Shown: piece by piece, positions 2,844 through 27,972 of the stretch
Layout of the letters: each line of letters begins with the position of its first letter
Position numbering within the stretch: position 1 is the first letter of the stretch
From: Baffinella frigidus
Taxonomy: Eukaryota > Cryptophyceae > Cryptomonadales > Baffinellaceae
Length of the DNA: 27,972 bases
Assembly (NCBI GenBank): GCA_026770585.1
Contig: MU646836.1
Span: forward strand, 206,401 to 234,372
Direction of reading: 5' to 3'
Position numbers and translations under genes: made by a program
Notes under the pieces: model-generated
Told to the model about the DNA's origin: nothing
Databases searched by the model: none
Seen by the model: only the letters and a program-made list of their open reading frames with translations

Positions 2844-5182
2844 ATGTCGACAGCATTTCGGAAAGTCGGGGAACTCACTGCCGCCGCGGGAAAGGGCAAG
2901 GTCCACCGCCGAGGGGACCCTGCACCCTGCACCCTAAACCCTAAACCCTGAACCTTTAACCCTGAACCCCAAACCCTAAACCCTAAACCCGAAACCCGAA
3001 ACCCTCAACCCGAAACCAGGTGGATGAGGTGAAGAGGCTGATCGCAGCGCACTGAAATGTCAAGGAGAGAGACTCGGTGAGTTGAATCCTAAACCCTAGA
3101 CCCTAGCCCTGAACCCCTACGACCTAAACGCAGCGCACGCAAGTATCAAGGGGACTTGGTGAGGTTTCCGGGTGGTCTGGGGATATTGCCCCATGTAGGA
3201 TCCCGGAGTGACTTTACACAGGTCACGTCCGCTCAGTCACGTCCACTATAAGGAGATGTAAGCCCACTGCACGTGCGGCTCCGTCCTTCTCTCAGTGAAA
3301 CCTAACTCGCACACGATGTCTCCGTGTGTCTCTAGCGCCCGAGCGGAGCCCTTCCGCCAGAGGTTCTGAGCCCGGACCGTTCCCGGTGGACGGTTCGGAG
3401 CCAGACCACACCTGCAGCGCGCCATCATGGCTCCTCAAGATCGTCCATCCAGGGGGAGATCTCCTCAACTCCTCCATGCCGGCGGCGGCACCGCCCCGGC
3501 TCTCAGGCTGCGCTGAGACGAGGCACGCCTCGCGTCCGGAGTTCCACCCGACTGACCTGACTCCACCAGCGCAACCGGGGGGGGGGAATGCCACCTTTCT
3601 TCCCTCCCTTTCGACGGCCTGCCAATAAGCCCGTCACCGCGGCGCGTCCCCTCGACGACGGCGCGCCCACTCAAGGCCGGCGGCAACGACACCGCCCCGG
3701 CTCGCGCCACAACGGACCCCTGCACCCCTCGCTCGGCAGTTACGCACTCCATCTGCGCAGGGGGGTCACAAGAGGGGGAGAGCCTCACCGGTTCGGGAAA
3801 CCAGCGCTCCCTCCGGGACTAGCTTTGCAGAGGGGTTGTTCATGTCGTGCCAAGGAGAGAGATTGAGTGAGTATCTCTTCTCCCTTCCCCCCCTCTCGCC
3901 CTCCCTCCGTCCATCCATCCCTTTCTTGTGGGATTCGCAGATCGGTCAGTATGTCCGCGGTACTGATTAATAATTGCTCGGTAAGATGACATCGTGTTAC
4001 CTAATCCGTCGAACACATTGCCTGCGAAGACCACTGTAAGGTGGTCAGGTGGAGTTTTGAAAGAAAGTCTGTATGCTATAACAACCTCAAAGCAAATCAT
4101 TTGGATTTAGGGTTCAAAGTTCGCCAACCTTACACCCTACACCCTACACCCTACACCCTACACCCTACACCCTACACCCTACACCCTACACCCTACACTA
4201 AACACGCATGTCTTGACACACTACACCCTCAACACTAAACCCTAAACCTTAAACCGTGAACCCTGAGGCCTAATCCCTGAAACCTGAAACCTGAACCCTG
4301 AACACTCAACACCGAACCCAAAACTCAAAACCCCAAGTTCTGAACCCTCAGTCCTAAACTCTAAACCCTCAACCCTTGACCCTGCACCCTGAACCCTGAA
4401 CCCTAATACCCGATCTACCAGGCTGCGGTCAAAGGCTTTGCTTTCGTGGTCAAGGTGCTCCTTCCAAATCACTGAACCCCATACCCTATACCCCATACCC
4501 TATACCCTAAACCTTGAACCTTGAACCCTACACTCTACAACCTAAACCCTGAACCCTGAACTATACAACCCAAAACCAACACCCTGAACCACAAACACTA
4601 AACCTTCAACTCTGAACCCTAACTCTTGATTCCTCAACACTGAAAACTAATCACTCATCACTAAACACCAAGCACTAAACAATAAACACTAAGCACTAAG
4701 CACTAAAAACTAAACACTAAACATTAAACAATGAACACTAAACACTAAACACTAAACACCAAACACTAAATACTAAACACTAAACACTAAACACTAAACA
4801 CTAAACACTAAACACTCAACTCTGAACAATAAACACTGAACACTAAACACTCCACAGCAATAAAACCAAAACTCAAAACAAAAACCTTCAACTGTAAACC
4901 CAAAACCCAAAACCCAAAAACCAAAACAAAAAATCCAAAACCCAAAACCCAAAACCCAAAACCCAAAACCCAAAACCCAAAACCCAAAACCCAAAACCCA
5001 CAACACTAAACCCAAAACCCTCAACTCTCTGTATACTCTAAACCCAAAACCCTCAATCTCAAACCCCAAACCCTAAACCCTAAACCCTAAACCCTAAACC
5101 TTAAACCCTAACCCCAACAGTCCAAACTCAAAACCTAAAGGTGCTGCTCGAGGCGGGCGCGGACAAGAACGTCAAGACCGAG
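2844..5182 (+). CDS. Fragmentary ankyrin-repeat gene (possible pseudogene)
   Basis: I recognise ankyrin-repeat helices split over four exons. Exon 1 (2844-2900) starts at an ATG and ends in LTAAAGKGK. After a phase-0 intron, exon 2 (3020-3076) reads VDEVKRLIAAH, then TGA, then NVKERDS, and has a GTGAGT donor. Exon 4422-4454 encodes AAVKGFAFVVK. Exon 5141-5182 encodes VLLEAGADKNVKTE, also followed by GTGAGA. The last two join in phase to give the second helix and loop of a canonical repeat (VVKxLLxxGADxN). Ankyrin repeats are 33-residue protein-binding modules, so a partner cannot be predicted. The TGA at 3053-3055 sits where repeats usually carry Ala, and the TPL-containing start of the second repeat was not found. 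So this is a decayed gene, a sequencing error or an incomplete model. Introns 2901-3019 and 4455-5140 are telomere-like repeat. Confidence 0.62.
2923..3013 (+). repeat. Telomere-like repeat filling ankyrin intron 1 (CCCTAAA)
   Basis: Imperfect CCCTAAA and CCCGAAA units fill most of intron 2901-3019 and run to within a few bases of its acceptor (CGAAACCAG). Confidence 0.9.
3130..3163 (+). repeat. Decayed copy of ankyrin exon 2 inside the following intron
   Basis: GCAGCGCAC, then an AAGTATCAAG-like stretch and a GTGAGG donor-like end, repeat the 3' half of exon 2 (3044-3082). Here the codon at the TGA position is GCA. Another weaker copy is at 3842-3874. These are intron-resident echoes of the exon. 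Confidence 0.6.
3174..3275 (+). repeat. Dispersed repeat family B, single copy
   Basis: This copy starts GGTCTGGGGATATTGCCCC and includes GGAGTGACTTTACACAGGTC and TATAAGGAGATGTAAGCCCA. It matches the arm at 23418-23510 and, inverted, the arm at 24050-24121. It lies in the space between ankyrin exons. Confidence 0.75.
3842..3874 (+). repeat. Second decayed copy of ankyrin exon 2 end
   Basis: TGCCAAGGAGAGAGATTGAG followed by TGAGT resembles the exon-2 end (TCAAGGAGAGAGACTCG|GTGAGT). It has a stop in the exon-2 frame and no matching acceptor, so I take it as a non-functional copy. Confidence 0.45.
4126..4198 (+). repeat. Homogeneous CCCTACA tandem array
   Basis: About ten near-perfect units of the 7-mer CCCTACA, one base away from CCCTAAA. 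This array is far more uniform than the surrounding telomere-like DNA. Confidence 0.95.
4220..4411 (+). repeat. Degenerate CCCTAAA/CCCTGAA block before ankyrin exon
   Basis: Mixed CCCTAAA, CCCTGAA and CACTCAA units end about 10 bp before the acceptor of exon 4422-4454. Confidence 0.9.
4480..5136 (+). repeat. Telomere-like intron with successive variant arrays
   Basis: This fills ankyrin intron 4455-5140. CCCTAAA/CCCTATA units come first, then a run of CACTAAA 7-mers (about 4640-4850). A CCCAAAA array follows (about 4895-5000), then CCCTAAA again, ending at the acceptor ACCTAAAG. The variants are grouped rather than mixed. Confidence 0.92.
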
Positions 5183-6349: not shown

Positions 6350-7435
6350 AAAAAAAATGTTGGTTTCAGACATTTTTGAATTTCAATTTCCGTTATTTTG
6401 GTCCTTAATTGGTACCGATCGGGCCTCAAATGGCTCCAAGTTTTGCCATAGCGGGCATCTCTACGATTTTACAAAGAGACGTTTTTCTCTCCGCGATGCT
6501 CCCTGCAACTGCGCGCATCGCACGCTTCGTCACAAACTCGCCGGGCGTCTGGGCGGCGCACCAGCGCCCGGCGTGCTCGTACCCGTGGCCAGGATCCCGT
6601 GCTGACCCCGCCCGTGCGGGATCCCGACTGGCAACGAACGTGGCGACACGGAGGGGAGCAGAGCATCCGCGGCGGAACGGCGCACAGTTCGTGCACGGGA
6701 TCCTGCTTGATATTCCGCATGCCCGTGCCGTCCGCCCTTCCCGCGCCGCAAAGGGGCAGAGTGCCATGTGGAGCGAAGCTGCGAGACAGCGTTCCTTGCA
6801 TGGAGGAGTCTTGCAGCGGGGAATGTTGGGTGGGGGGGGGAAGAGGGCCGGTGGGACACAGAGCTGCTCAACAAAACCGGAAGGCGTGGGTGGCTGGGGA
6901 AGCGAGAGTTGGTGGCAGGCAAGCTCCCTCCAGAACAGCTGATCTCAGACATCAGAACGGTTGAGACGTTTTCTTTGCCTGCCCTATTCTCGTTGACTCT
7001 CTCTCACAAAATCTTTCACGCAATGGCATCTACCCACCGTCTCCCTTCCCACTCCCCCCACCTCTACCGAAAGATCCTCCGTCGGCCCGGGGTTCTCAGG
7101 GGGTTCAGCTGAGTGATGAAGGAGGAGGGCTAGCTGTGTTCTACTTGGGGCGTCCCACCCCAAGAACCCTGCCCATGGGGCGCCTGCAGCATATCGTCCA
7201 TGCCCCATCTCCCTCATCTTCTGCTTCTTCATAATAAATCCGTCGTTTGACCGAGTTTCATCTTTCCGTCTCCCCATTTCAGATGTACCTTTCTTCGAAA
7301 CCAGCATTTACATGTTGACAGTGGTTTTCAGAACGCTGCTGGGCAACAGTGAGTCATACCCCCCCCCCCCCTCCTCTGGCGCAGGAGCATGCAATACACG
7401 TCATCATCGGCGCGAACATCGGGGTGCCATCCCTC

Positions 7436-7560
7436 CCCCAAACCCCAAACCCCAATCACAAACCCGCAACCCGAAACCACAAACCCCAAACCCCAAACCC
7501 CGAACCTTGAACCCGACTCTCTAAGCCCCAAACCCTACACCATAAACTCTGAAATTCCAC
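7436..7560 (+). repeat. CCCCAAA/CCCTAAA telomere-like block
   Basis: CCCCAAA, CCCGAAA and CCCTACA units. It lies upstream of the first recognised rhomboid exon, probably in an intron of that gene. Confidence 0.85.
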
Positions 7561-7847
7561 ACTCAATCCCCGTCTTTGATGCAAATCATCTCAAGCACTT
7601 GACCCCCAAACCTGGGTGCTCGAATCTCTGGGCTCTGATAAGCCAGCGAGTTTCTGCGAACGCGGATCGGCTCTGTGTGGAATCTCCAGGAGCGCCCAGC
7701 GCCCTCAACTTTCCAAACCATTTCCAAAGGAAAACTACCACCCCGGAATCACCTCTCGTAGGTATTCGCGCAACGGAGGAGCGTGGGCTTCAGCAGGCTC
7801 GTAACCTTGATCAGCCTGAGGAGGCTCGTAACCTTCAAACCTGGCAG

Positions 7848-10800
7848 GTTTTCGTGATGTGGCAGAGTCTGAAGCTGCGGAGGTTCATGGCGAAGAACTT
7901 CGCACTCTCCACCACCGGGGTAAGGAGTTTAGGTTTGAGGGTTGAGGGTGGATGGTTTAGGGTTGAGGTTCCCCATGTCCCCCTGCACCCAACACCCGAG
8001 ACCTGTTTAGGGTGTGGGGTGTAGGGGTTTGGGGTGTCCATTTGGGGGTGCGGGGTCTCGGGTCTTGGGAAGAACCCCTCCCCCACTGCCATGCGAGATT
8101 GGAAGAAAGCCTATCTCTAAAACCTGTTTCAGCCTAATTCCAGGCGTCACGCTTGGAATTAGTGCCTTGAAATGGAAATTGCCAGGATCCCTTCGCGACC
8201 CTGAATAGATTCTATTTCAGATGTGACTTGGCGTTGGAGCCATTCCGTACTTTTAGGGATTCAAAATAACTGGGTTTGTACCAGAAATATTTTAGATAGA
8301 CACCTCGCGAAACAAAACCTATTCTGTAATGGGACTAGATCCTCCCGCTCGGTCGAGGGACACTTCCTCGGAGCACAGCATGGTGGATTGGCTGTTCCTC
8401 GGCCCCCACGGACAACACTGTGCTCGCACGCTCAGCCAGCATAATCCCAATCGTTGAAAATGCCCGAGGATGGATTCCTCGGATCTCATCCCCCTGTCGC
8501 CTTCCTCCGGGTTTCAGGTTTCGGTTCTACGGGGTTTGAAGTTAGGGTTTCGGGGTTAGCCTTCCTCACCGCTCCCCTCACCCCCCCTGCCGCACTCCCT
8601 TCGCAGGTCCTGGTCGACTGGAAATTCCACACGGTCCTCACTTCGGTTTTCTCGCACTATGACTGGGTCCATCTCCCTAAACCCTGAACACCAGCCCCTT
8701 AACCCTAAAGCCTGAACTATGAACACTGCACCCTAAACCCTGAACCCTAAACCATGAGCACTGAACCCTCAACCCTAAACCCTAAACCCTAAACCCCAAA
8801 CCCTAAACCCTAAACCCTAAACCCTAAACCCTACGCCTTAAACCATTGACCCTGAACCCTACACCCTAAACCCTAAACCCAGCGCCTTAAACCCTAAACC
8901 ATAAACCCTAAATGTTAAAACCTAAACTCTCAACCCGAAACCCTTAACCCTACACCCTACACCCTACACCCTACACCCTACACCCTAAACACTAAACTTT
9001 AAACCCTAAACCCTCAACCCTCAACCCTAAACCCTGAACCCTATACCCTAAACCCTAAACCCCAAACCCTAAACCCTAAACCCTAAACCCCAAACCCTAA
9101 ACCCTAAACCCCAAACCCTAAACCCTAAACCCCGAACCCCAAACCGTAAACCGTATACCCCAAGCACAAATCTCAAACCCTAATCCCTAAAACCTAAACC
9201 CTGACCCCCACACCCTTAACCCTAAACCCTCAACCCTGAACCTCAAACCCTAAGCCCTGAACCCCATACCCTGAATCCTAAACCAGGTGCATCTGGGGAC
9301 CAACATAGTGACGCTTCTCCTCTTCGGTGCGTGTCCGAAGAGGGGCTCTCTCAACCTACCGTTGCCATTCCGAAGGGTTGGTTGTGCTCTCCGAAGGGGT
9401 GGTTGACATCCTGAAGGGTTGCGTGGGTCCATGTCGGGATCAGACTAGGTTTTAGTGTTTAGGGTTCAGGGTTTAGGGTTTAGGAATTAGGGATTAGGGT
9501 TTAGGGTTTAGTGTTTAGGACGCCGCCTTGCTCCCCATCTTGGCTGCCCCACTTCCCGTAGTGTAGAAATGGGCACCTTCTTACGGGCATCATGGTCCAA
9601 CCCTGCATCCGAAACCCTCCATCGTCCCTTCCCTCGGCATCAACCTAACTTTGGCATTCTCAAAGGTCAAATGGGCAAGCTGGGTGTGTGGTACCGATCC
9701 GTCAGCTTTGGAGAGAACAAGAGCCTGGTCGCGCCCAATTGGTGTTATGGCCGAATCAACTGAGACAGAGCTAAACCCCCACCTTAGATCGAAGACTCTT
9801 CCGGCTATCCCGCGTGAGCGTGTGCCCACCCCACAACATCTGCCGGCCTCGGCTTTGCCCCAGCCCTGCAGGGCTCCTCCGGGGGGGGGGTTACGTGCGA
9901 ATCTCAGTGTGTACTGGCATCTCAGGTTGACCTTCATTTCCCGCCTGGGAATTGGCGAATCCGTAATCCAGATCTGAAGGAGGAGCCCCTAGCTCTGCCT
10001 GGACAAAACTGCGCTCGCCATAATTGCATGTTAGTTACCCTTTGTATTGGAGTTTCTACTCCACGTGTGTTTTACGGCGAGTCCAGTTTGACCCAGGCAG
10101 CGGTAGAAACCCCGCAAAAGGGCCTTGGGTGGTAGGGCGATCGACAGAGTGAGGCAAGTACCTTTCTCTGAAGTCTGCGAGGTGAGCTGAAGGTTGTGAG
10201 CCCTGCAGGGACCGAGACGCTGGCAGTTCTCGGGGCCCGCAGGTTCGTAGCCCTCTACATGGTCGGAGGCCTCTTTTCGAGCTGCTGCCAGGTCTTTCTG
10301 CACTGCCGGGCCGCTTGAATAACCCTTCAGTGTTTGGGGAAACCCGTTAGGGTTTGGGGAAACCCTTGAGGGTTGGGAGAAACCCTTTAGGGTTTGAGGT
10401 TTAGGAGTAAACCCTCGACAGTTTGGGGTTGGGAGGTTGAGAGGTTGGGAGTTAGGTGTTGGTGCTCATGGTGTGGGGTCCCTCCGTTACCACCAGCCAT
10501 TCTCTCGAACGTGGTCCTATCCTTCTGTTCTGGCGTATGTTGCACTGGGGGGGGCACAGTGATATACAGGCGTTCTCGGATCACACCCGCTCCAACACAT
10601 CAAACCAACGCCTCCACACTCTCCCCGAATCGCCCCCCCCCACCAACCTTGGATGCTTGATCCTGCATTCTCTCGAGGTCGCCAGTGTTCCGTCCCACCA
10701 ACGCATCACACACCCATCAAGCATAAAATGATGTGTTGCCGTGTGCCTCATCACGCGCATCGCCCGGCACCTGAATCGTAAAGCAACCTTTTTGTCCCTC

Positions 10801-12533
10801 CGCGAGGGCTGATGATGTTCCCGCCATTTCTGTGTAGTGAAGCTCCCCGACCCATTTAGCAGCAACCGGGGGCTTCATGGATACAGTTCATCAAAACGAT
10901 TTGTACTAGAATATTACGCATTGCCCTGGATTCCAACCGGAATTTCGCCTTGGTTTCAAGGCGAAAAGACACTCGGGCGCTGCTAAGTGGGCATGGCACG
11001 GCAGGTCGCGTGGCCGATCATATCTGGGAGTGCGCGCTACTCCCCGAACCAGCTGGGCCTCGGGGCGTCGGGCGCCATCAACGCGGTCAACCCGAACACC
11101 AAACCCTAAACCATGCACCCTAATCCCTAATCCCTAAACCCTTAACCCTAAACCCTAAACCTTAAACCCTAAACCCCTGAACCCTACACCTTAAACCCTA
11201 AACCCAAAATCCTAACCCCTGGACCCTAAACCCTAAACCCCAAACCCTAAACCCTGACCCCTAAACCCTCAACCCTAAACACCACACCACGCACCCCAAA
11301 CCCTAAACCCTTAACCCCACCCCAAACACCTCAAACCCTAAACGCCAAACACTCAACCCCAAACCTTGCCCCAAAACCCTGAAGCTCAATGGAGACAGGT
11401 GGTGGCATTCTCGGTGCTGACATTCCCGGGGCGGATGCTCCTCTTCTACTGGGTCCTCCCTGTCTCGGCAGGTGCGTCCCATATACCCCCTAAATCCTGA
11501 CCCCTAAACCCTTAATCCTGAGCCCTAACTGGTTCAGATTTCGAGACCTCAGCCTGTCTTTTTTTCGAAGGCGTTGAAGCGATCTTGATTTGGTGTCATT
11601 GGAATCTGTTTGATCCTGCTGTACTTGTTGCTCCCTGTCCCGGCAGGTGCGCGGAACCCTTTCTCTCTCTCTCTCTCTCAAAACCACTTTCTCTCTCCGG
11701 AACCCTTTCTCTCTCTCTTGAACCCTTGCTCTCTCCCCTGAATCCTTTATCTCTGTCTGAAACCCGAACAGCGTCGATAAGGGTACCACCTGATTCGGAT
11801 ACAGGGTTCAGGGTTTCGGGTGTAGCGTGTTCCCGTTCGAAGGCGCGAAAGCGATCTGGTGTTACCCTTCAGGACGACCCCTTCGGCCAGGGTTAAGTTA
11901 ACATATTGACATTCCAAATAGCTGACGAGCCCGCCTCGGCAGCGGGGCTGGGCGTGCTCTTCCTCGGAAAGGATATTGCCGGATTGATGCTCGGCGACCC
12001 CTCCCTCGGGAACCCGGTACACCCAACCTCAAACACTAAACCCTAAACCCCAAACCCTAAACCCTAAACCTTAAACTCTGAAATCTGAACTGTAAACTCT
12101 AATTCCCAAACTCTAAAGCCTCAAATCTGAACTATCAAAACTAAACCCTAAACCCTAAACCCTAAACCCTAAACCCTAAACCCTAAACCCCAAACCCCAA
12201 ACCCCAAACCCTAAACCCTAAACCCTTAACTCTAAACCCCAAACACCGAACCCTCAACCCTAAACCCTAAACCACAAGCCCCAAACCCTGAACCCCTAAC
12301 CCCAAATTCCAAACCCTAAACCCTAAACCCTAAACCCTAAACCCCACACCTCAAACCTCAGTCGCACATCGGGGGCGCGGTATTCGCCGAAACCCTAAAC
12401 ACCACACCCCAAACCCCAAACTATACGCCCCAAACCCTAAACCCCACACCCTTACCCCCAGGCGCATGTCGGGGGCGCGTTGTTCGGCGGGGCGCTCTGG
12501 ATGCGGTGGGGGCGGCCGCGGCCCTTCATCTGA
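7848..12533 (+). CDS. Rhomboid intramembrane serine protease, mitochondrial PARL type
   Basis: Eight exons join in phase into 185 residues: 7848-7919, 8607-8666, 9287-9326, 10227-10291, 11005-11085, 11399-11471, 11922-12016 and 12462-12533 (TGA stop). Landmarks in order are VFVMWQSLKLRRFM (end of the first membrane segment), TSVFSHYDW joined to VHLGTNIVTLLLF (the HxxxN of the second segment), RFVALYMVGGLFSS, GLGASGAINA with the nucleophile Ser at 11068-11070, FYWVLPVSA, and AHVGGALFGG with the catalytic His at 12465-12467. Order and spacing fit PARL/Rbd1 rhomboids, which cleave membrane segments in the mitochondrial inner membrane; localisation is inferred from the family. The start, any targeting peptide and most of membrane segment 1 were not found. 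The C-terminus is short and basic-hydrophobic (GRPRPFI). Five of the eight exons start with GT, and most introns hold telomere-like DNA. Confidence 0.93.
7921..8035 (-). repeat. TTTAGGG block in rhomboid intron (reverse orientation)
   Basis: TTTAGGTTTGAGGG, GGTTTAGGGTTGAGG and TTTAGGGTGTGGGG begin directly at the donor GTAAGGAGTTTAGG. This is one of the few blocks whose G-rich strand is the gene's sense strand. Confidence 0.85.
8671..9283 (+). repeat. Telomere-like repeat forming a whole rhomboid intron
   Basis: Intron 8667-9286 is CCCTAAA-type repeat from its donor (GTCCATCTCCCTAAACC) to its acceptor (CCTAAACCAG). Units include CCCTAAA, CCCTGAA, CCCTACA (a uniform run at about 8947-8986) and CCCCAAA. 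Confidence 0.96.
9327..10226 (+). other. Rhomboid intron of about 900 bp, mostly unique sequence
   Basis: A phase-1 intron between GTGCGTGT at 9327 and TGGCAG at 10226. It has a small TTTAGGG block near 9450-9517; the rest shows no recognised feature. Frames open inside it on both strands have no family motif. Confidence 0.75.
9450..9517 (-). repeat. Short TTTAGGG block in rhomboid intron
   Basis: About nine degenerate TTTAGGG/ATTAGGG units on the plus strand. Confidence 0.9.
10316..10450 (-). repeat. Degenerate TTTAGGG and GGGGAAACCC repeats in rhomboid intron
   Basis: Units such as TTAGGGTTTGGGGAAACCC recur three to four times with a period of about 21-22 bp, followed by GGTTTGAGGTTTAGG and GTTGGGAGGTTGAGAGG. 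The block lies in intron 10292-11004. Confidence 0.8.
11093..11385 (+). repeat. Telomere-like repeat forming a whole rhomboid intron
   Basis: Intron 11086-11398, directly after the Ser-active-site exon, is CCCTAAA-type repeat with only short unique edges. Confidence 0.95.
11456..11651 (+). repeat. Copy of an exon end and its splice donor inside the next intron
   Basis: The end of exon 11399-11471 and its donor (11456-11476, CTCCCTGTCTCGGCAGGTGC then G) recurs at 11631-11651 with one substitution. A second pair of repeats (TCGAAGGCG, then AGCGATCT and GGTGT) lies at about 11565-11600 and 11837-11868, so the intron also carries a duplication with a period of about 270 bp. Confidence 0.85.
11660..11760 (+). 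repeat. CTCTCT-rich low-complexity tract
   Basis: CT microsatellite with a period of roughly 27 bp built on AACCCTTTCTCTCTCTCT. It lies in rhomboid intron 11472-11921. Confidence 0.85.
12026..12450 (+). repeat. Telomere-like repeat forming the last rhomboid intron
   Basis: Intron 12017-12461 is CCCTAAA/CCCCAAA repeat interrupted by a decayed copy of the next exon at 12362-12390. Confidence 0.95.
12362..12390 (+). repeat. Decayed copy of the rhomboid His exon within the intron
   Basis: CAG|TCGCACATCGGGGGCGCG, then GTATTCGCCG, mirrors the true exon start CAG|GCGCATGTCGGGGGCGCG, then TTGTTCGGCG (12462-12489). It keeps an AG acceptor, the reading frame and the catalytic His codon, but runs into telomere repeat with no donor. 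It is either an exon duplicate or a source of aberrant splicing. Confidence 0.8.
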
Positions 12534-14217: not shown

Positions 14218-14415
14218 CGCGACCTCTCACCCTCAAAGGTCGCACGTGTCCCACACGGCATCTGACCCCCCAAGGTCGTGACTTCTGACTCCCAAACGCC
14301 ACGACCCCTGGCCCCGAAACGACGCTACCTCTTAACCCCCCAAGGTCGCGCGACCTCTGGCGCCGAAAGGTCGTATCCCCCAACAGTCGCGACCTGTTTC
14401 GCTCAAAGGTCTAAC
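14218..14415. repeat. GGTCGCGACC-rich short-repeat tract at the 3' end of the Sec14-like gene
   Basis: CAAAGGTCGC, CCAAGGTCGTGAC, CCAAGGTCGCGCGACCTCTG, GAAAGGTCGT and AGTCGCGACC recur every 20-60 bp up to the stop codon. The cores are self-complementary. Confidence 0.7.
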
Positions 14416-17400
14416 TTGGCCATGATCGCGTCCGCCTCCCGGTACCGCTGCGCGCGCGCGTCCCCGAACGCGTCCTCCCACGGTTGCTTCTTCGGCAATG
14501 GGAGATCCCCGAAACGCAGCCCGCCAATGTCCTACCGGAAAGGGGGGTAACTCTTCAGCGAGGGGCTCGCAACCTATTCGTGGGGTGCGCCGCCAGCCGT
14601 GATGTCGGGAGGGTCTATCCCTTAAGTGGCCAGTAGGCACATGCGCCCTACCGTAGGGCCCTAGGACCTGCCTAGGACCTCTTGGCCGTCAAACTTGACG
14701 GCATGGCCACTTAAGGGATACAGTGGCCCTGTTGAGTGGATACACGTTTCTTCCTCTCTGGTTCTGCGGGCTCTGGTTCTGCGGGGGGTTCAGAGCCTTG
14801 CGCTGAGAAAGTGGACTTTAGGATTCAGGGTTGAGGATTGAGGGTAGGATGGAGGGTTTAGGGTTTGGGTTGAGGGTTTAGAGTTTATGGTTTAGGGTGT
14901 AGGGCCTAGGGTTTAGGGTGCAGTGTGAAGGGTTGAGTGTTTATGGTTTATGATTTATGGTTTATGGTTTATGGTTTAGGGTTTGGGGTTTAGGGTTTAG
15001 GGTATAGGGTATAGGGTTTAGGCTTTGGGGTTTGGAGTGTGGGGTTTACGGGTATGCATGCTCCTCGAGCACACATTTCTCCCTCGGGCGCATCTCCCCA
15101 TGCGTCGGGACTGAGACTCTCAGGGACCCTACACCCCACACCAGGGAACACATGCTCGGCATGTTGTTTTCGATCCTGGATAAACGCATTTTATCCCTCC
15201 AAAATCCTCACTCTCGAACAAGAAACCCCAAAACTCCAAACCCTACACCCAAAACCTGATCCGTGGGAAGCTTCCGCAGGGCAACCTCGATCGGCCCCCC
15301 CAGGCCACGCAGCGCCTGGTTGAGGGTTTAGGGTTCAGGGATCCGGGTACAGGGTGTCGGGTTTAGGGTCAGGGAATATGGTGACGCCGTGTCAACTAGG
15401 GGATATGGTGATGCCGTGTCAACTAGGGGCACCCCAAAGCCGCCAGACCCCAGGAAGTGCATACGGTCTCTTTTACTTTTCTCAAGTTGACATCTCGGGT
15501 CTGCAGTACAAACTCGGCCGACTTTGGCGTGAACCCGGTCTCAAGAAAATGGTGAGACCGTATCAGACTGGGACAGAGCAAGAAGGAGTGGGGTGATGCC
15601 TTGTCAACGAGAGGGTCATCGAAGCCGCCACACCCCAGGAAATGTCCCTTTGCTTCCTCGGGCCAGGTCACCTCTCGAACTTGATAGCGTGAGCAGGCTT
15701 TTGATAGTGCCATGTGCGTGGCAGCATTGGTGTTGAGGGATTTATCACACGGTGCAAGGGTTGACACGTGAGTGTAACAAAGGAGGGTCGCTGCCGAGCG
15801 AACTCGGCACAAATAAGACAGTCAGGGTCGAAAAACGACCTTAGCTTTCAGGTGAAAGTCCTTAAAACTAAGGAGTTGCCGCCTCGCTCGACAGTCGAGC
15901 GTTATCGTTATCCGGATAACGAACAGACCTTCCCAACGACGGGGTCCCCAAAGCCGCCTGACCCGAGGAAGTGCATCCGGTCCCGTTGCTTCTCCGGCAG
16001 CAGGAACTTCGCTACCTGCGAGCAAAGACACTCCCGTTTCAGTCAACCCGTTGACTTACTACGCTAGGTCTCAAGAGGGTCAATCCCAAAAGTCAACTCC
16101 AAGTGACCCTCGAGTCATTTTGACGGAATCCCGCGATTTCACGGGATTCTGCCGCTACGGCAACTTTTGATTGATCCACATCACGTCTAAAGTAGAACGA
16201 ACGACGGTTGACTGAATCGGGTGGGGTTTTGTACCAGGGCGGTGACTCAACCAGGAAGGGTGTGTACCAGGTGCATACCGAAGGCGATGGTTAGTCAACC
16301 GCCGAGGGAGCGTGGTATCGGAAACCGATTTTCGGTACGAATCCGATGGACACAACACCATGAAACCAGTCCAAAGTTCTGAGGGCTGGTAGAAGACGGA
16401 GCGAGGAAACGAGAGGCGGAGGGTAAGACCCAGCCCACACACATGCAAACCTGACAAACCCAAGCGAGCAACATGGGTGAGAAACCGCAGGGCTGCCGGA
16501 AGGCACCAACCCCCCTCAACCCGGTGAGATCTCGACCTTGAACCCTGTCAGGAGCGCACTCCCCAGATGGAGGCTGGTAGACGTTCAGGGTTCAGGCTTT
16601 TCGGCTCAGGGGTTCGGGTCTAGGACCTAGGGCTTGGGGCCTAGGGCCTGGGGCCTAGGCCCTGGGACCTAGGGCCTAGGGCCTAGAGCTTAGGGCCTAG
16701 GGTCTAGGGCCTATGGTCTATGGTCTAGGGTCTAGGCTCTAGGGTCCGGGAAATATGATCTAGGTTCTGGGCGTTAAACCCAACAGACGGAGGCGAAGTA
16801 GAAGAGCTCGCGAAAAACGTGTCTGAAACCAGAGGGCTGGTGGAAGGCACCAAACCCCCTCAACCCATAAACCCTCAACTCAAAACACTAGGTTGTGCCG
16901 CCGCAGGGTGAGCGCAAACCCTCAGCCCTCAACCCTGAACCCTGAACCCTAAAACCTAAACGCCGAATCCCGAGCGCACCCCCCCCCCCTGGTCGGATAG
17001 CGAGGGGGCAAACGGATCGTGTACGAATCGAAAATTTGTACCAGCCGCGTCCAGTGTGGACGCTAGACTTCCCCTTTGGAAGGCTGGCAAGAATATGCCT
17101 GCTCCGTTTGCCTGCTCACTATCCGAGCAATGAGACAGAGGCGAAGAAGAAGGGCGTGCATGGGACACCTTGACTCGCTGTGGAAAGCGACTGTCAAGCT
17201 CTGCCCGAGTTTCAGTATGGCTCGTCCTTAAAACTATTCAAGAGCAGAAATTCAGTACAAATAGTTGAATAGAACGCCTTTAGGATGAGGCAGAATAAAA
17301 CTCAGGCAGAGCTAGACAGTAACCTTTCGGTACAAATCCGACGAACCCAACCGACCGAAATGCGTCAGAGTTCGGAAGGCTGCTGGAAGTCTAGGGTTGG

Positions 17401-20400
17401 GTGTTTAAAGGTTTAGGGTTTAGGGATTAGGGATGGGGGTTTAGGTTGTGGGGCTTAGGTATGGAAGTTGAGGGTTGAGGGGATTAGGGTTTAAGGATCG
17501 CGGGATCGCGGGTGGGTCGGGTCTACTAGTAGGGATCAAAGGTGGGTCGGGTCGACTGGCGTCGATCGCGGGTCGGTCCCTTCGACTGGTAGGCATCGCG
17601 GGTGGGTCGAGTCAACTAGTGACGTACCCCCCAGACGGAGGCGAAGTAGAAGGGCTCTCCGAGCATGATGCACGTCGAGATGTTCTGCTCGAAACTGTGC
17701 CACGCGAGACACGCCATGCCACCACCGTTCAGAGCCCACGCGCCAAACGTCCACTACAAAGGGCAACCAGCATGCAAACGTGGCGAGCCGAGTTTTATCA
17801 GGCAGAAACACGGTGGCACACGTCGACGTGTGCCATGGCGCGGTGTTTTGCAAAGCCGCTCTACCCCACGGTCGGAACCCTCCCGCGCACCGAATGTCAT
17901 GCCCCCCGCCTGGACCTAAAGGGGATTTTGACCCGAGGTTGACTGAAATGACCCTGTGGGGGGAATTGCGCCTCCCTGAGGATCCTTCTCAGCCCTCCCC
18001 CCTCGCGCGGCGCTGGGAGCCGAAAAGGTTATGAGCCTGACGATAACGGCCCTCGTCGCATGCGCCGCGACCGCGGTCACAACCTGTCTGTTCAACCCTA
18101 CTCCCCAACCTGGCAGGACAGGACGGGGGCGGCTCTGGGCGAAAGGTGTTCTGGGGCCTTTGTGTCCTGGGAATCGAGGAGTGTGATCGCGTGCACTGTT
18201 CAGGGGTGGAGTGTGACCGAGTGCACTCGCGTGGCATCGGTGGGGCTCAATCCCAGCCTCCGGGGGAGACAATTCATGGCAGACGTGGCGGTATCAATGA
18301 CGCTATCCCCTTGGGCGGCTCCCAGGAGAGAGTACCTGTGTAGCAGCGACATCCCTCCAGAACGCACCTGCACGCCACGAGTCGAGAAGCTTCGTGTTAC
18401 TCCAACACCAAGGCACACCACGTCTGTGCCGATCTAGACGTTTGGTGTTATATCAAGTCACAACAAGTCTGTACCAGGGTGTACCGATCTCACGCGTCCT
18501 CGTGTGAGATGTGCGTGCTCGTGTCAAGTCGCGCCTGCTTGACTGCTGTTTTACCCGCCCCCTCAAACCCGGAAAACAGAACCCGCGTGCAAAACACTCC
18601 CCAGAGGATGGGATTAAGACAAACCCGCTAGAGCTCAGAAAAATGAGCACACGGTACTCGACTAGGGCAGCGCGGTCCCAGGAGCATGGCCGGGCCTACC
18701 GTAGTGGAACGCCACACGCTCACTACCCTGAATGCGAAGAGCGACCGAAGTATCTCGCCTTCTTGAGGCCCCTAGGACATCTCGCCTGAGGCCCCCTAGG
18801 AACGCAGCTCCTGTAGTAGCCCTGGGTGCAACCGCAGTCCCAAACTGTTTGGTGGTTTCCCTGCATTCGAGGCGTTCTCTGACCCATACAATGACTAATG
18901 TTGTGGAACTGTTGGTTAACAAGATATCTTTTGCCCCGGATAATTACTAATTACTACCACGAACATAACTGGAGCGATCTGCGAAGGCCACTGTGTGGTA
19001 GGGTGGACTGTGTGGTAGGGTGGACTGTGTGGTAGGGTGGACTGTGGTAGGGTGGGCGGCACCATGTGCCACATGTCCTTGAGGTGGAAGCCTGACAGGT
19101 CTTGGATCACCACCAGTCCTCGTCCCTGCCCGCCCGGGAATTCGAAATCAATACGAATAATTTTCTTCCGCGAACAACAGAGTGAAACACTTTCACTGGG
19201 AAACCAATGTGAACACACCATGGAAGTTCACGTGAATTCCCAAATCAACAATCTCGCAATTGTCCTGCTTGCCGCGGGCCTTCCACCCGCCCGATTCCAC
19301 CCGCCCGATTTCACCCGCCCTCCCGAAGTGAACAGTTCGATCGGTAAGTCTGGCGGATCTGTTCCAAGGTGTACCGATTTTCGGTAAACCCTGGTGCACA
19401 TCGGGGCTGGGCCAACCGAGCGATATTGCGTCCGAGGCAGGCAGTTCTCAAGGCCGGGTGGGGTTTAGGGTTCAGAAACTCCCCCGTACGACCGTTGGCT
19501 AACCAGAGAGTTTCCCAGTTCTACCCGAATTGGCCATGGTCTGGTCAAAACCCTGACCGGATCATTCAACCGCCGCGGGGCGAATCGGCACAGTTCCGAG
19601 GCGGGTCCTTTTCAAGGCTGGTCGACTTTGGATCACTTTGCTCTATGCGTGAGTGAAGAGCGGTTTCCACATCTGTTGGTCACAAAAATAACAGAACGAG
19701 GGCTGCACTTGACGGTTTAGTAGAGCGACTGTGGTAAATGTTGGCCGCTTTTCGGATTCCCGGTTTGCCGGTTTGCCGGTTTTACAAGTCCCGTCAGGGT
19801 TTTAAATCCGATTTCATTTGAACCAGATTTCTCGAAAAGGTGCGTTTTGAAAGGGTTTTAGTTTACTTTTGGTTCAAATGAAATCTGCTTTAAAACCCTA
19901 ATGGGACTTGAAAAACCGGCAAACCGGCAAACCGGGAACCCGTAAAGCGGCCAACATTTACCACAGTCGCTCTACCAGCACCGTGACCATGTGGCTTTAT
20001 TTCATTCATTTTGTTTGGCCAGCGGATGAGACACCCGCTCTAGTAACAAAAACATAGAGAAGGGCCAACCTGCCAGTCCTGCCTGGAGTACATTGTCTCG
20101 TGCACGTAAACCTGGTTTAGGGTTGAGGGTTGAGGGTTGAGGGTTGAGGGTGAAGGGCTTAGGGTTTAGGGATTAGGGTTTAGGGATTAGGGTTTAGGGA
20201 TTAGGGTTTAGGATTTTGATTTAGAGTTTAAGGTTTGGGGTTTAGGGTTCAGGGTTGGTGGTTTAGGGTTTAGGGTGTAGGGTTGAGGGTTTGGGGTCTA
20301 GGGTCTGGGGTCTAGGGTTTAGGGTTTGGGGTCTAGGGTTTAGGGTTTGGGGTCTAGGGTTTAGAGTTTATGTAGGGATTAGGGTTTAGGGTTTAGGGTG

Positions 20401-21651: not shown

Positions 21652-21955
21652 TGAAAATCGATCAGGAGATCGATCGTTGAAAATCGATTTCGGATCGCGT
21701 TGCGGGGTGGCGACTTCAGCCGCAAGACCTTCAAGCTCGGCTCCTGTCTGCAGGTCCGCCACCGCCGCGTGGCGAAAACTGTATATCTTGTTTTTGTCCC
21801 GAACTGGGGCGGTACCGCACGTTCTCGTGGCGCTAATCGCCGCGGGCGGTGGGGGATAAAGCGATTTTCGCTACGGCGAATAAAGTCACCTGAGTTTTGC
21901 CACGCACGTTGCTTGACCGAACGCACGATGCACCACGGGGAAGAAGGCTCGCCCT

Positions 21956-22350
21956 ACCCTGAACCCCAATCCCCAAACCCTGAACCCTGAACCCCAAACC
22001 CTGTCAACCCCACCCCACAAATAGATCCCGAAACACCGAACCCTAAACCCTGACCCTAAACTATGAACCCCAAATCCTAAACCCAAAACCCTGAAACCCT
22101 TTCCTAAAACCTCAACGCCCGAAACCCCGAACAAACCCGAAACCCAGGACCACATGGACATCCTCAAGTCGATCCCGCGAATCCTCGACGGTAATCCCCA
22201 AACCCTGCACACCCCACCCCAAACCCAGAGCCCGAAACACCGAACCCTAAACCCTAAACCCAAAATTCCCAAACCTAAACACTGAACCCCAAATTCCCAA
22301 CAAACTAGACAAACCTACGCCCGAAACCCGAAAACTGAAACCCTAAATGC
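21956..22350 (+). repeat. Telomere-like repeat around the small AhpD-like exon
   Basis: CCCTAAA/CCCTGAA/CCCCAAA units fill the sequence before exon 22148-22190 and nearly all of intron 22191-22352 up to its acceptor CCCTAAATGCAG. Confidence 0.93.
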
Positions 22351-22969
22351 AGGCTACGTTGGGCCGAACAAAATCGCGCCAGCTACGGCGGAGTCGTGCA
22401 TGCTGGCAGTGAACAGCGTCAACGACTGTGCCTTCTGCACCAGTCTGCACGGGGAGCTGGGGCGCATGGCGGGACTCGAGGACAAGGTGGGCAAGATGAA
22501 CTCGGCCAAGACCGCCGGGGAGATCAAGACGCTCTCAGGCAACGACCCCATGGTGGTCTACGCTCGCAAGTTCGGGGAGTGCGACGGCAGGGGCGCGGAT
22601 CTGGAGGAGGCCTTCACGGTCTTGGAGAAGGCGGTGGGTGCGGGCTCTGCTTCGGCCTGCCGCGCGCACTGTTGGTTCCTGCAATGGGGATCAATCGCCG
22701 GGAACACGCTCCTCTCCTTCTACCAGGGCCGCCTCGTCGGCGATGCCAAGAGCGGGTCCAACGTGTTGTTCGAGATCGCCTTCGCCGCCTACTACACGCC
22801 GTGCTACGTCCTCATCAGCGCCACGTCCCTCCTGCTCAAGGCCCTCCCGTCCAAGGTGCCCAACGTCGTCAGCTCTGCGCTCGGCTGTGTCTTGACGTGT
22901 GTGGCAAGCATCTGGATTGTCCCCCTCGGTGTCGTGGGACTGGCCACGGCTCCCTTCCGCAAGAAGTAA
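22148..22969 (+). CDS. AhpD/carboxymuconolactone decarboxylase-like protein with hydrophobic C-terminus
   Basis: A 43-nt exon (22148-22190, MDILKSIPRILDG) joins in phase 1 to exon 22353-22969 (TAA stop), giving 219 visible residues. The junction reads ILDG then YVGPNKIAP. The AhpD core follows: NSVNDCAFCTSLHGELGRMA has the CxxC redox pair (codons 22427 and 22436) and the partner His (22448), as in AhpD peroxidases, where the cysteines reduce hydroperoxides. A later WGSIAGNTLLSF matches the closing helix of the fold. The last 70 or so residues are hydrophobic (AFAAYYTPCYVLIS, then VVSSALGCVLTCVASIWIVP) and end in FRKK, which suggests one or two membrane segments and membrane anchoring. Substrate and compartment are unknown. 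The true start lies upstream in an exon I could not find. The ATG at 22400 is internal to the domain and not the start. Confidence 0.92.
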
Positions 22970-23417: not shown

Positions 23418-24121
23418 CGTCTGGGGATACTACCCCGTGTAGGATGCCCGGAGTGATTTTACACAAGTCACCTTCACATAAGGAGACATAAGCCCACGGC
23501 ATGTGAAGCGCCAGCGCGAATTGCGATTAGATTATTCGAAGTCTCAACCCTCATTAGATTCTTCGGGGTGTCAACATCATTAGTGGGACCCTCAAGATCA
23601 ACAAGTTTACCTCAGGAAGTGATCACAAGTGAATTGCCCTTGAGAGTTTCAAGGTCACGGGCCCGTCACGGAACAGTTTTTTTTTTGACCATCGTACTAA
23701 AGTACCCTGCCCATGGTACCTTAGGGGGTCACGTGACCCCAAGTTTTTTTTAGGTCGGGACTGAACATAGGCGGACCGCTGCCGAGTGAGAACGGGACAC
23801 AATTTCAAAGAATTTCAAAAACTTTCCCCTGAATCGTGAAGTAACTGGACTTTAAAAATGAAAAAGGCAGGTCACAAATCTGGACCTTCTGCAGTTCTAC
23901 AGGGAGAACTAGCAAGAGAGGTGCAGCATGTGGACCGGAGGTCGCGTGCTGGCTTGCATATTTACTGAGGAGAACAGGAGTCCCCGGATCGGACCCGGAG
24001 ATATTCCCGAGATCCCGCTCGGGCTTTGGTGGCGGGACCGAAAGTGGACACTTGGCTAAAGTGGATGTGACTTGTGTAAAGTCGCTCCGGCTATCTCTAT
24101 GCGAGGTATTATCCCCAGACC
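23418..24121. mobile_element. About 700-bp element with long terminal inverted repeats (family B)
   Basis: Left arm GTCTGGGGATACTACCCCGT, then GGAGTGATTTTACACAAGTC. The right arm, read inverted from 24121, is GTCTGGGGATAATACCTCGC, then GGAGCGACTTTACACAAGTC. The arms are similar over about 65 bp. There is no recognisable transposase inside, so it would be non-autonomous. A further copy of one arm lies at 3174-3275. No clear target duplication is visible. Confidence 0.7.
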
Positions 24122-25776: not shown

Positions 25777-27162
25777 ATGTTTCCGATTGGAAAACAAGAT
25801 GAACCGATTCCGGTCAACGGCATGGATGTGTTGCACCAACACTCGTATCTTCGACAGCATGGGTACGAAACGCATGCGCCGGCTCTCTCTCTTTCCTCGC
25901 GCGAACGCCGCACTCCGGCAGAGCCTCAGTCCCTCGCAACTCCTTCGTCGTGGCAGCGAGGGAGCTCCCTCGGACGTCGGGAGAGAGGGACACCATCTCC
26001 GGTCAAGGGCACAGGGGGGGGGATCCGGGCGTCGCGGTCGCCGCCAGAGGCAGTTGGCGGGCGCCCTCGCAGCACCCCGCGGGGGCGTCCGACGTCCACG
26101 GGAGAAGAGAGGGATCCGCGCCAGTACGGGATAACCCCGCGGGCGCAGGCTGCCCAACCTTCTGTCGATTCAGGGCTCCAGGGATCCTTGAATTTTCAGT
26201 CTTCTGGACGAGTGGCGAGGACCGACGTACTCTCACAAAGCTTCCCCTCGCTGGAGGACGGGCGGGCGGGCAGCGCGCTTTCCCTCTCCCTCTCCGCGCC
26301 TCATCTCCCGCAGGAGAGCGGCATCCTCTCGCTGCTGCCGCCTGCGCCTGGACCAGGGCTCTGCACTGTGGGCCTCCAGGTCCGCGCCATTCCGCCCACT
26401 GGGGCCTCACGGCGCAGTGTCGATCCTTACCGCTGCAGCACGCGCCCGCCCTCTTTCTACCACAATGCATCTCGTGCCCACACGCACAGCAGGGTTTGAT
26501 GGGTGCGGCGCGGGGAATAAGCCGAAAGAGACGGGTGGTGCTGGATCGGGCGTGGCTGCACAGTCTGCCACGTGTCTGCCACGTGATAGTCAATACCCGG
26601 GGTCCCCTCACAGGTGGCGGAAGTGACGCCGCACTTGGTGGAGGGTGTCTCCAGGTTGTTGGATTCCTCCGGGAGAGACGTCTCCGCCCAGGTGCGCCCA
26701 TCCATCCGGTGTGTGCCGTGCGTTCCTGCAGCCAGGAGTGGCGAGGGGCACCGCAGTCGTCCTGCGCCTGATCCCCGGGGAAGTGTGACGGCTCACATGG
26801 TGCGGGTGGCTGCGGCTGCCGCAGGTGAAGGTTGGCGACATCCTGCGGTCGGTCCAAGGCTACATGGTCGATCAGGTTGGGGCCCTGCACCCTAAACCTT
26901 GAACCCTAAGCCCCGAACCTTAAATCCTTAAAACTGAACTCCAAACCCTACACCCCCAACCCTGAACCCTCAACCCTAAACCCTAAACCATAAACCCTAA
27001 ACCCCAAACCCACACCCTAAACCCTGAACCCTGAACCCCAAACCCCAAACTCTAACCGCTCAACCCTGAACCCTAAACCCTAAACCCTAAACTCTCAACC
27101 CTAAACCCAAATCTTGAACCCTACACCTTAACCCCTCAACCCTAAACCCCAACCCCTAAACC

Positions 27163-27208
<46 letters not shown>

Positions 27209-27854
27209 ACCCCAAACCCTAAACCCAAAACCCCAAACCCCAAACCCCAAACACTAACCCCTAACCCCTTTACCCTAAAACCTAAACTCCAAACCCTAAA
27301 CTCTAAACCCTAAACCCTAAACCCTAAACTCTAAACCCCAAACTTCAACTCCTAAACCCTAAACCCTGAACCCTTAACCCCAAACCCCAAACCCTAAACC
27401 CTAAACCCCAAACCCCAAACACCAACTCCTCTCCCTCAAACCTAATCCATAAACCCTAAACTCCAATCCCTGAACGCTATACCAGGCGAGCATGGACATC
27501 GTAGAGGAGCTGCTGGTGGGCGAATCAGGTGTGACCCTTCCTCTGCCCTCCTTTTCTTTGATTTCATGTACCTACTCTGCCTTCGTTCCTTCCCTTCCCA
27601 GTACTCTTCCTCCATTTTCTCGGCTGTTGAACAGTCCCTGAGTCAGCTGTCTTGGCAGGCGAAGCATGCAACACCCCTCAACCCTCAACCCTCAACCCCA
27701 AACCCTAAACCCTAAACCCTAAACCCTACACCCAGGCTCGGAGGTGCAGCTAATCCTGCAGTCGATCGCATCGAACAGACTCTACAAACTCGCGGTGGTC
27801 CGCAACGTGCCTCTCGCCAACCAGCCGCCCCCCGTGCGCCGCTACGCCCTCAAG
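25777..27854 (+). CDS. PDZ-domain protein with disordered N-terminus (continues past window end)
   Basis: The proposed exons are 25777-26379, 26614-26646, 26825-26875, 27486-27528 and 27736-27854, all in phase. The first (about 200 codons from ATG 25777) is Ser/Pro/Arg-rich and apparently disordered; its assignment to this gene is inferred from phase (TVGLQ joined to VAEVTPHLVEG) and is less sure than the rest. The PDZ signature is clear: VAEVTP, KVGDILRSVQGYMVDQ, ASMDIVEELLVGES, then GSEVQLILQS and RLYKLAVVRNVPL, which are strands B-F of the fold. PDZ domains bind C-terminal peptides and scaffold complexes. The loop between VTP and KVGD is about three residues shorter than usual. A donor-like AAG|GTCGAA at 27855 points to further exons beyond the poly-C run. 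Introns 26876-27485 and 27529-27735 are wholly or largely telomere-like. Confidence 0.85.
26886..27480 (+). repeat. Telomere-like repeat forming a PDZ intron
   Basis: About 600 bp of CCCTAAA-type units fill intron 26876-27485. They include a uniform CCCTCAA run at about 27166-27212 and CCCCAAA sub-arrays. Confidence 0.96.
27675..27734 (+). repeat. Short CCCTCAA/CCCTAAA array at a PDZ acceptor
   Basis: It occupies the 3' end of intron 27529-27735 and ends exactly in the acceptor CCCTACACCCAG. Confidence 0.95.

Positions 27855-27878: not shown

Positions 27879-27972
<94 letters not shown>
27879..27972. repeat. Terminal poly-C run (94 bp)
   Basis: Uninterrupted C from 27879 to the window end, following CCCCTCA. 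A run this long at a sequence edge is most likely an assembly or sequencing artefact grown from a shorter genuine C-rich tract. Confidence 0.95.

Follow-up and report, generated by a model that had tools for sequence, protein, structure and literature searches.

Predicted introns built almost wholly of CCCTAAA-type repeat in Baffinella frigidus, and their possible formation and growth through break repair

Several gene families of Baffinella frigidus, an Arctic, single-celled cryptophyte alga, contain predicted introns that consist almost entirely of a degenerate telomere-type repeat, nearly always with the C-rich CCCTAAA strand as the coding strand. With confidence that goes only slightly beyond even, we favour the view that these introns were formed and lengthened by telomere-type repeat built in during the repair of DNA breaks; growth of introns is better supported than their birth. 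The analysis began with one stretch of 27,972 nucleotides, referred to here as the window, and was extended to genes elsewhere in the genome.

The repeat is abundant in this genome. The genome is described, in the portion of the genome paper available to us, as 534.5 Mb with 41.1% repeats and a GC content of 53.9% (PMC9756366), and the main text of that paper has no word beginning with 'intron' or 'telomer'; the GC content of the window is 55%, and Amorphochlora, a chlorarachniophyte with a genome of 27% GC, was rejected as the host on this comparison. Across the 382 Mb searched (1364 contigs), (CCCTAAA)3 is found as an exact match 53,120 times, both strands counted, and its reversed control 27 times. 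The window alone has 165 exact CCCTAAA heptamers, where shuffling gives a mean of 6.3. An array was defined as a run of heptamers with at most one mismatch from CCCTAAA or its complement, and 20 base-shuffled windows had a mean of 1.75 array bases. The unit is degenerate, with 175 CCCTAAA, 66 CCCCAAA and 62 CCCTGAA in one census. Telomerase, the capture of telomere fragments, and slippage in an old minisatellite are all candidate suppliers of the repeat. Among 20 contig ends examined, 9 consist of N, and a clear outward telomere was found at none of the 11 readable ends. The window itself terminates in 94 C (27879-27972), and poly-C is also present at three of the 11 readable contig ends (L074, L078 and L082); such ends are probably points at which sequencing or assembly stopped.

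Six introns in the window, all on the plus strand, had been predicted to be repeat from donor to acceptor, and they were found to be so, at 85-98% sense-C array. They are ankyrin-gene intron A (4455-5140, 92%), introns 3 (B; 8667-9286, 98%), 6 (C; 11086-11398, 94%) and 8 (D; 12017-12461, 85%, in two blocks) of the PARL rhomboid gene, AhpD-gene intron E (22191-22352, 94%) and PDZ-gene intron F (26876-27485, 97%). The accompanying claim that only a few unique bases remain at the edges is not entirely accurate for 12017-12461, where a decayed copy of the start of the next exon lies between the two arrays (12356-12386). Other plus-strand introns are partly filled with sense-C array, namely PARL intron 1 (7424-7847, 27%), a second AhpD-gene intron (21754-22147, 48%, with the array adjoining the acceptor) and PDZ-gene intron G (27529-27735, 28%). 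Two further PARL introns, 2 (7920-8606, plus strand) and 4 (9327-10208, plus strand), carry G-rich-sense array over 18% and 12% of their lengths, respectively, and are exceptions to the strand rule discussed below. On the minus strand, a CCCTAAA array at 14787-15050 is probably within a minus-strand gene, which was called by eye.

The reality of these introns, which remain predictions from sequence, is supported by an annotated protein and by homology. All three PARL array-intron joins are identical in an annotated Baffinella protein (P0026); a relative at 65% identity (P0027) continues across all three, and a Pfam rhomboid match with an E value of 1.2e-18 covers them. The spliced rhomboid matches the annotated B. 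frigidus protein T484DRAFT_1967501 at 96% over its whole length, and by-eye comparison places the difference between splice and annotation at one intron edge (PVSAADEPASAAGLG versus PVSAAGLG). For the AhpD gene, both joins are matched by a 72% identical protein from a relative's transcriptome (P0003), whose source name is visible as 'Gemini' and is read by us as Geminigera; the Pfam CMD match of the gene is below the cut-off (18.8 versus 23 bits). The PDZ join lies inside a Pfam PDZ match that is likewise below the cut-off (16.5 versus 25 bits, E 0.0088), as does the ankyrin join for Pfam Ank (15.9 versus 21.1 bits, E 0.017). The original prediction was that splicing restores protein motifs in all four genes. 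This stands for PARL, through the annotated protein, and for AhpD, through the relative's protein, and is weaker for PDZ and ankyrin, which have frame and sub-threshold Pfam matches. One might still suspect an artefact of assembly or prediction, with telomere reads collapsed or mis-joined and the introns unreal, given the many N-filled stretches of the genome and the poly-C at some contig ends. Yet the arrays show divergence and are unlike each other, and the flanking exons continue one protein, and we consider such an artefact very improbable.

Introns built nearly wholly of repeat recur outside the window, in genes for CCT-alpha, kinesins and HSP70. Exon positions were taken from Pfam searches of the organism's own genome (10 matches for CCT, 45 for kinesin and 17 for HSP70), and 46 introns were mapped by hand, 14 in the window and 32 outside it, the latter from DNA around some of the Pfam matches. 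Boundaries were placed by hand from GT/AG, frame and homology, and an intron was included only if both of its ends could be placed; seven of the 46 (KIN2_1, KIN2_2, KIN249_1, KIN481_1-3 and KIN941_1) come from kinesin pieces that were picked mostly for having arrays. At least half of the length is array in 17 of the 46 introns (6/14 in the window and 11/32 outside); these are called array introns below. The splice ends are GT-AG in 45 introns and GC-AG in one, a count that includes a one-base correction to CCT39_GDG, an array-free intron that had been tabled one base off and whose count in the six-base test described below stays at 2 in a by-eye recount. An apparent GC donor in place of GT is seen in the C941 kinesin (L061), in a 135-base array intron.

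Alignments of the conceptually spliced proteins to PDB sequences are gapless at seven array-intron joins, three in CCT-alpha, two in HSP70, one in the C2 kinesin and one, the first, in the C942 kinesin. The second C942 kinesin join falls in a variable loop and is supported by frame only, while the third HSP70 join is supported by frame and neighbouring profile matches, and the C249 and C941 kinesin joins by frame and our own reading of the motor domain. The array-bearing HSP70 gene is on contig C62. On C709, there is a pair of HSP70 genes of equal score in inverted orientation (130108-131931 on the minus strand and 132798-134621 on the plus strand), each a single open frame over the whole family profile and therefore intronless there.

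The repeat is denser in the sampled introns than in blindly placed DNA. For 25 introns chosen blind to arrays (8 from CCT, 12 from the first batch of kinesins and 5 from HSP70), eight have array over half or more of their length, and 37.9% of all bases are sense-C array with 0% sense-G. Blindly placed DNA, counted on both strands, is 13.7% array on other contigs (28,710 readable bases) and 11.1% array on the window's contig (32,472 bases). The comparison of 38% with 11-14% is with bulk DNA rather than purely intergenic DNA, and within that scope it goes against the notion that the repeat is no more common in introns than elsewhere.

A second regularity is orientation. All 17 array introns have CCCTAAA on the coding strand. 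Some sense-C array is present in 28 of the 46 introns, and some sense-G array in three, where it makes up at most 18% of intron length. In 28 kinesin pieces (31,061 bases on 21 contigs), sense-C arrays number 23 and cover 3698 bases, against 309 bases for the 6 sense-G arrays (binomial p 0.0023 for the array counts); by gene, 12 are mainly C, 2 are mainly G (C834 and C657) and 7 are array-free (p 0.013). The clearest exception is the C657 kinesin (L059), which has 201 bases of sense-G array soon after the donor and zero sense-C, and which is outside the set of 46 introns because its next exon could not be placed.

The orientation rule may have a simple basis in splicing. In a table of 34 introns, sense-C arrays (6177 bases) contain GT at 4.9 per kb and AG at 9.9 per kb, compared with 62.0 and 57.8 per kb in non-array intron DNA and 144.2 and 102.5 per kb when those arrays are read on the opposite strand. 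Because the C-rich strand is almost devoid of GT and AG, it should be inert to the spliceosome, whereas an array with G-rich sense would offer many donors and acceptors. We infer that selection against mis-splicing lies behind the strand bias. The bias could instead be mutational, with transcription exposing one strand so that repeat is added in one orientation; the kinesin array counts fit selection or mutation alike. The favoured sense, though, is the one that is poor in splice dinucleotides, as selection predicts with no extra assumption, and we think a purely mutational origin unlikely.

Two kinds of scar bear on how the introns arose. The first is an intron start that copies the start of the next exon. 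In ankyrin-gene intron A, the intron start TCAAGGTGCTCCT and the next exon TAAAGGTGCTGCT form a direct repeat at the two intron ends. PARL intron B begins GTCCATCT and is followed by an exon that begins GTGCATCT, the corresponding stretches being GGTCCATCT and GGTGCATCT; there are similar pairs in CCT-alpha (GGTCATTCCCAA and GGTGATCCCGAA) and HSP70 (GGTCTTCGAGAG and GGTGTTCGAGGG). We scored an intron as positive if its bases 3 to 8 agreed with the next exon at no fewer than four of six positions. By this six-base test, 5 of the 17 array introns are positive (0.99 expected by permutation), compared with 0 of the 29 others (1.14 expected). The permutation p of 0.00085 and the Fisher p of 0.0045 are biased, because the cut was set with four of the five positives already known. 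The sole independent test is the HSP70 set, added later, in which one of three array introns is positive. A broader junction score is weak and depends on the set (p 0.019, 0.099 and 0.034). Flank-to-flank duplication as a general feature of arrays was also considered and set aside, as only 9 of 74 arrays score at least 18, a mild excess over the 3.0% of control pairings that do so.

The idea that these introns were born at double-strand breaks is therefore suggestive only: start copies are confined to array introns, under a cut set late, and 12 of the 17 array introns have no junction copy. Birth through repeat insertion is plausible for about a third of the array introns, a suggestion and no stronger.

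The other possibility raised in the original prediction, a spread of repeat inside older introns, is also supported, by 11 more of the 46 introns, in which sense-C array occupies less than half, and by exon-edge copies that lie among arrays. In its purest form, such a spread would require neither telomerase nor break repair. A CCCTAAA-type minisatellite would have been seeded inside old introns and would have filled them through slippage and unequal exchange, giving growth alone. This account fits the frequency of partial filling, the local clustering of variant units (such as the CCCTACA type at 4127-4198 of the window) and the majority of array introns that lack a junction copy. It does not predict start copies in array introns only, for which the late cut again applies, nor does it predict an intron such as that of the C2 kinesin, which is 149 bases long and 97% array, with repeat almost from its first base. 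We regard the minisatellite account as possible but rather doubtful.

The second scar is a decayed copy of an exon edge inside the adjoining intron. With arrays masked in 41 introns (the five HSP70 introns being omitted), 9 of 82 exon edges have a copy in their own intron that scores at least 28, compared with 1 of 2126 pairings of an edge with a foreign intron. Among kinesins, a near copy with a score of at least 40 lies in the same locus for 12 of 36 exon matches, as opposed to 17 of 954 in other kinesin loci, a control that is inflated by genuine homology among kinesins and in which two second-copy matches were deliberately excluded as queries. Introns thus contain more copies of flanking sequence than chance would give, as is required if they lengthen through staggered breaks or tandem duplication.

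The splice site is part of several of these copies. The one inside PARL intron 7 (11611-11651, plus strand) consists of the exon end plus GTGCG and corresponds to the real sequence at 11436-11476. The copy between the arrays of PARL intron 8, also on the plus strand, consists of CCTCAG followed by the first bases of the last PARL exon, the real sequence being at 12456-12486. A CCT-alpha copy has CAG plus 29 exon bases. Exon copies may abut the repeat directly, as where GAACATGAACC passes straight into CTAAAACCC; on C123, the exon copy ends in ACGAACATGAACC and continues at once as CTAAAACCC. The order on C249 is exon end, 211-base array and a second, copied exon end.

Some introns with no array (CCT94_LE and KIN23_1) have exon-edge copies too, which implies that duplication can do without the repeat. 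It is conceivable, then, that the primary process is one in which template switching or fill-in makes local tandem duplications that cross exon-intron borders, and that the telomere-type repeat is a bystander that expands as filler in the slack. The presence of copies with and without arrays agrees with this, as does the C112 kinesin, in which a piece of exon is duplicated with no array. What such duplication leaves unexplained is why a single heptamer type makes up 38% of the bases in 25 introns, and why it keeps to one strand; we consider it an improbable account of the whole.

Under the break-repair reading that we favour, there are four putative steps. First, as the scars suggest, a staggered break within an exon or next to one would be filled in, which would duplicate between about 8 and about 80 bases of the flanking sequence, and telomere-type repeat would be joined at the site. 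Second, where the duplicate holds AG/GT, the left copy could provide the donor GT and the insert or the right copy the acceptor AG, a proposal prompted by intron starts that copy the next exon. The duplicated AG/GT would in this way supply both donor and acceptor, making the insert spliceable and leaving the protein unchanged. Third, inserts would persist mainly when CCCTAAA is on the message strand; the dinucleotide counts are observed, and selection is our interpretation of them. C-rich inserts would survive because the CCCTAAA unit is free of GT and AG, the two dinucleotides that recur with every unit of a TTTAGGG repeat. Fourth, later events at the same introns would duplicate exon edges, splice site included, and would bring in more repeat or expand what is there, so that the introns grow, the copies being observed and their order being our reconstruction; exon-edge copies that are not used would decay.

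The data suggest that, in Baffinella, the repair of DNA breaks often involves local duplication and filler of telomere type, the result being concealed by splicing. The lengthening of introns is well supported. A bolder version, which we put forward tentatively and at somewhat less than even confidence, is that the genome maintains a standing intron factory, in which exon breaks are patched with telomere repeat, AG/GT edges make the patch spliceable, C-rich sense passes the spliceosome, and hundreds to thousands of introns are patches at varied stages of decay.

There are partial parallels in other systems. In primates and rodents, interstitial telomeric sequences have been inserted at double-strand breaks, and Table 1 of that study, which was available to us in part, records target duplication at six of the 130 rodent loci and four of the 25 primate loci (PMC2246262). 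The Baffinella arrays are similar in that telomere-type repeat is internal and sometimes accompanied by putative target duplication. The mammalian insertions are repair products that the available part of the study does not describe as introns, whereas in Baffinella several gene families have predicted introns made up entirely of the repeat, which is biased towards one orientation on the coding strand. For Daphnia, it has been reported that introns are gained when double-strand breaks are repaired; direct repeats located at introns or within them are interpreted as traces of staggered breaks, and a trend to longer introns is proposed (PMC4202315, in the part available). Some Baffinella introns have candidate repeats of this kind; the accessible Daphnia text has no word beginning with 'telomer', whereas the Baffinella filler is of one heptamer type and the copies include splice sites. 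In the tandem genomic duplication model, as presented in the portion available, a duplicated AG/GT gives both splice sites (PMC3443670), but the Baffinella copies lie apart, with long telomere-type repeat between them.

Introners, described in the accessible part of a further paper as intron-generating transposable elements (PMC12730881), resemble the Baffinella introns in that one sequence type recurs as introns across genes. Unlike introners, the array introns share only a simple heptamer, and by eye they have no common ends, inverted repeats or fixed duplication length. A transposon-like introner was set aside as a candidate on this by-eye comparison of ends. Among the matches listed in our literature searches, whose scope left out bioRxiv and most subscription papers, we saw no case of whole introns of telomere repeat in many genes with a strand rule, and a phrase query on introns made of telomere repeat gave zero matches.

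The origin of new introns is a long-standing question, and in Baffinella telomere-type repeat, known as a product of repair, seems to fill introns in several gene families. The rule of orientation is simple, in that the message strand is to be free of GT and AG, and the decayed exon-edge copies would be a readable record of intron lengthening.

Some additional features were noted. By eye, 14300-17800 of the window holds a minus-strand gene with several decayed exon-edge copies, and self-comparison of the window gives exon-edge-like repeat pairs at 15438-15468 and 15952-15982, and at 16784-16809 and 17632-17657. At another locus (L025; C20:300001-310000), one unique stretch is present in several copies that alternate with telomere-type arrays (8450-9050 of the locus, minus strand). 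An inverted repeat at 19720-19975 of the window has 106-base arms that are 93% complementary and a 44-base spacer, and a foldback of similar appearance is found in an HSP70 intron (L089:665-852). The two may belong to a family of foldback elements; a search for a shared pattern across the loci analysed gave none. Finally, a dispersed repeat links positions 3175-3275 and 23419-23505 of the window, which are 74.5% identical and 20 kb apart.
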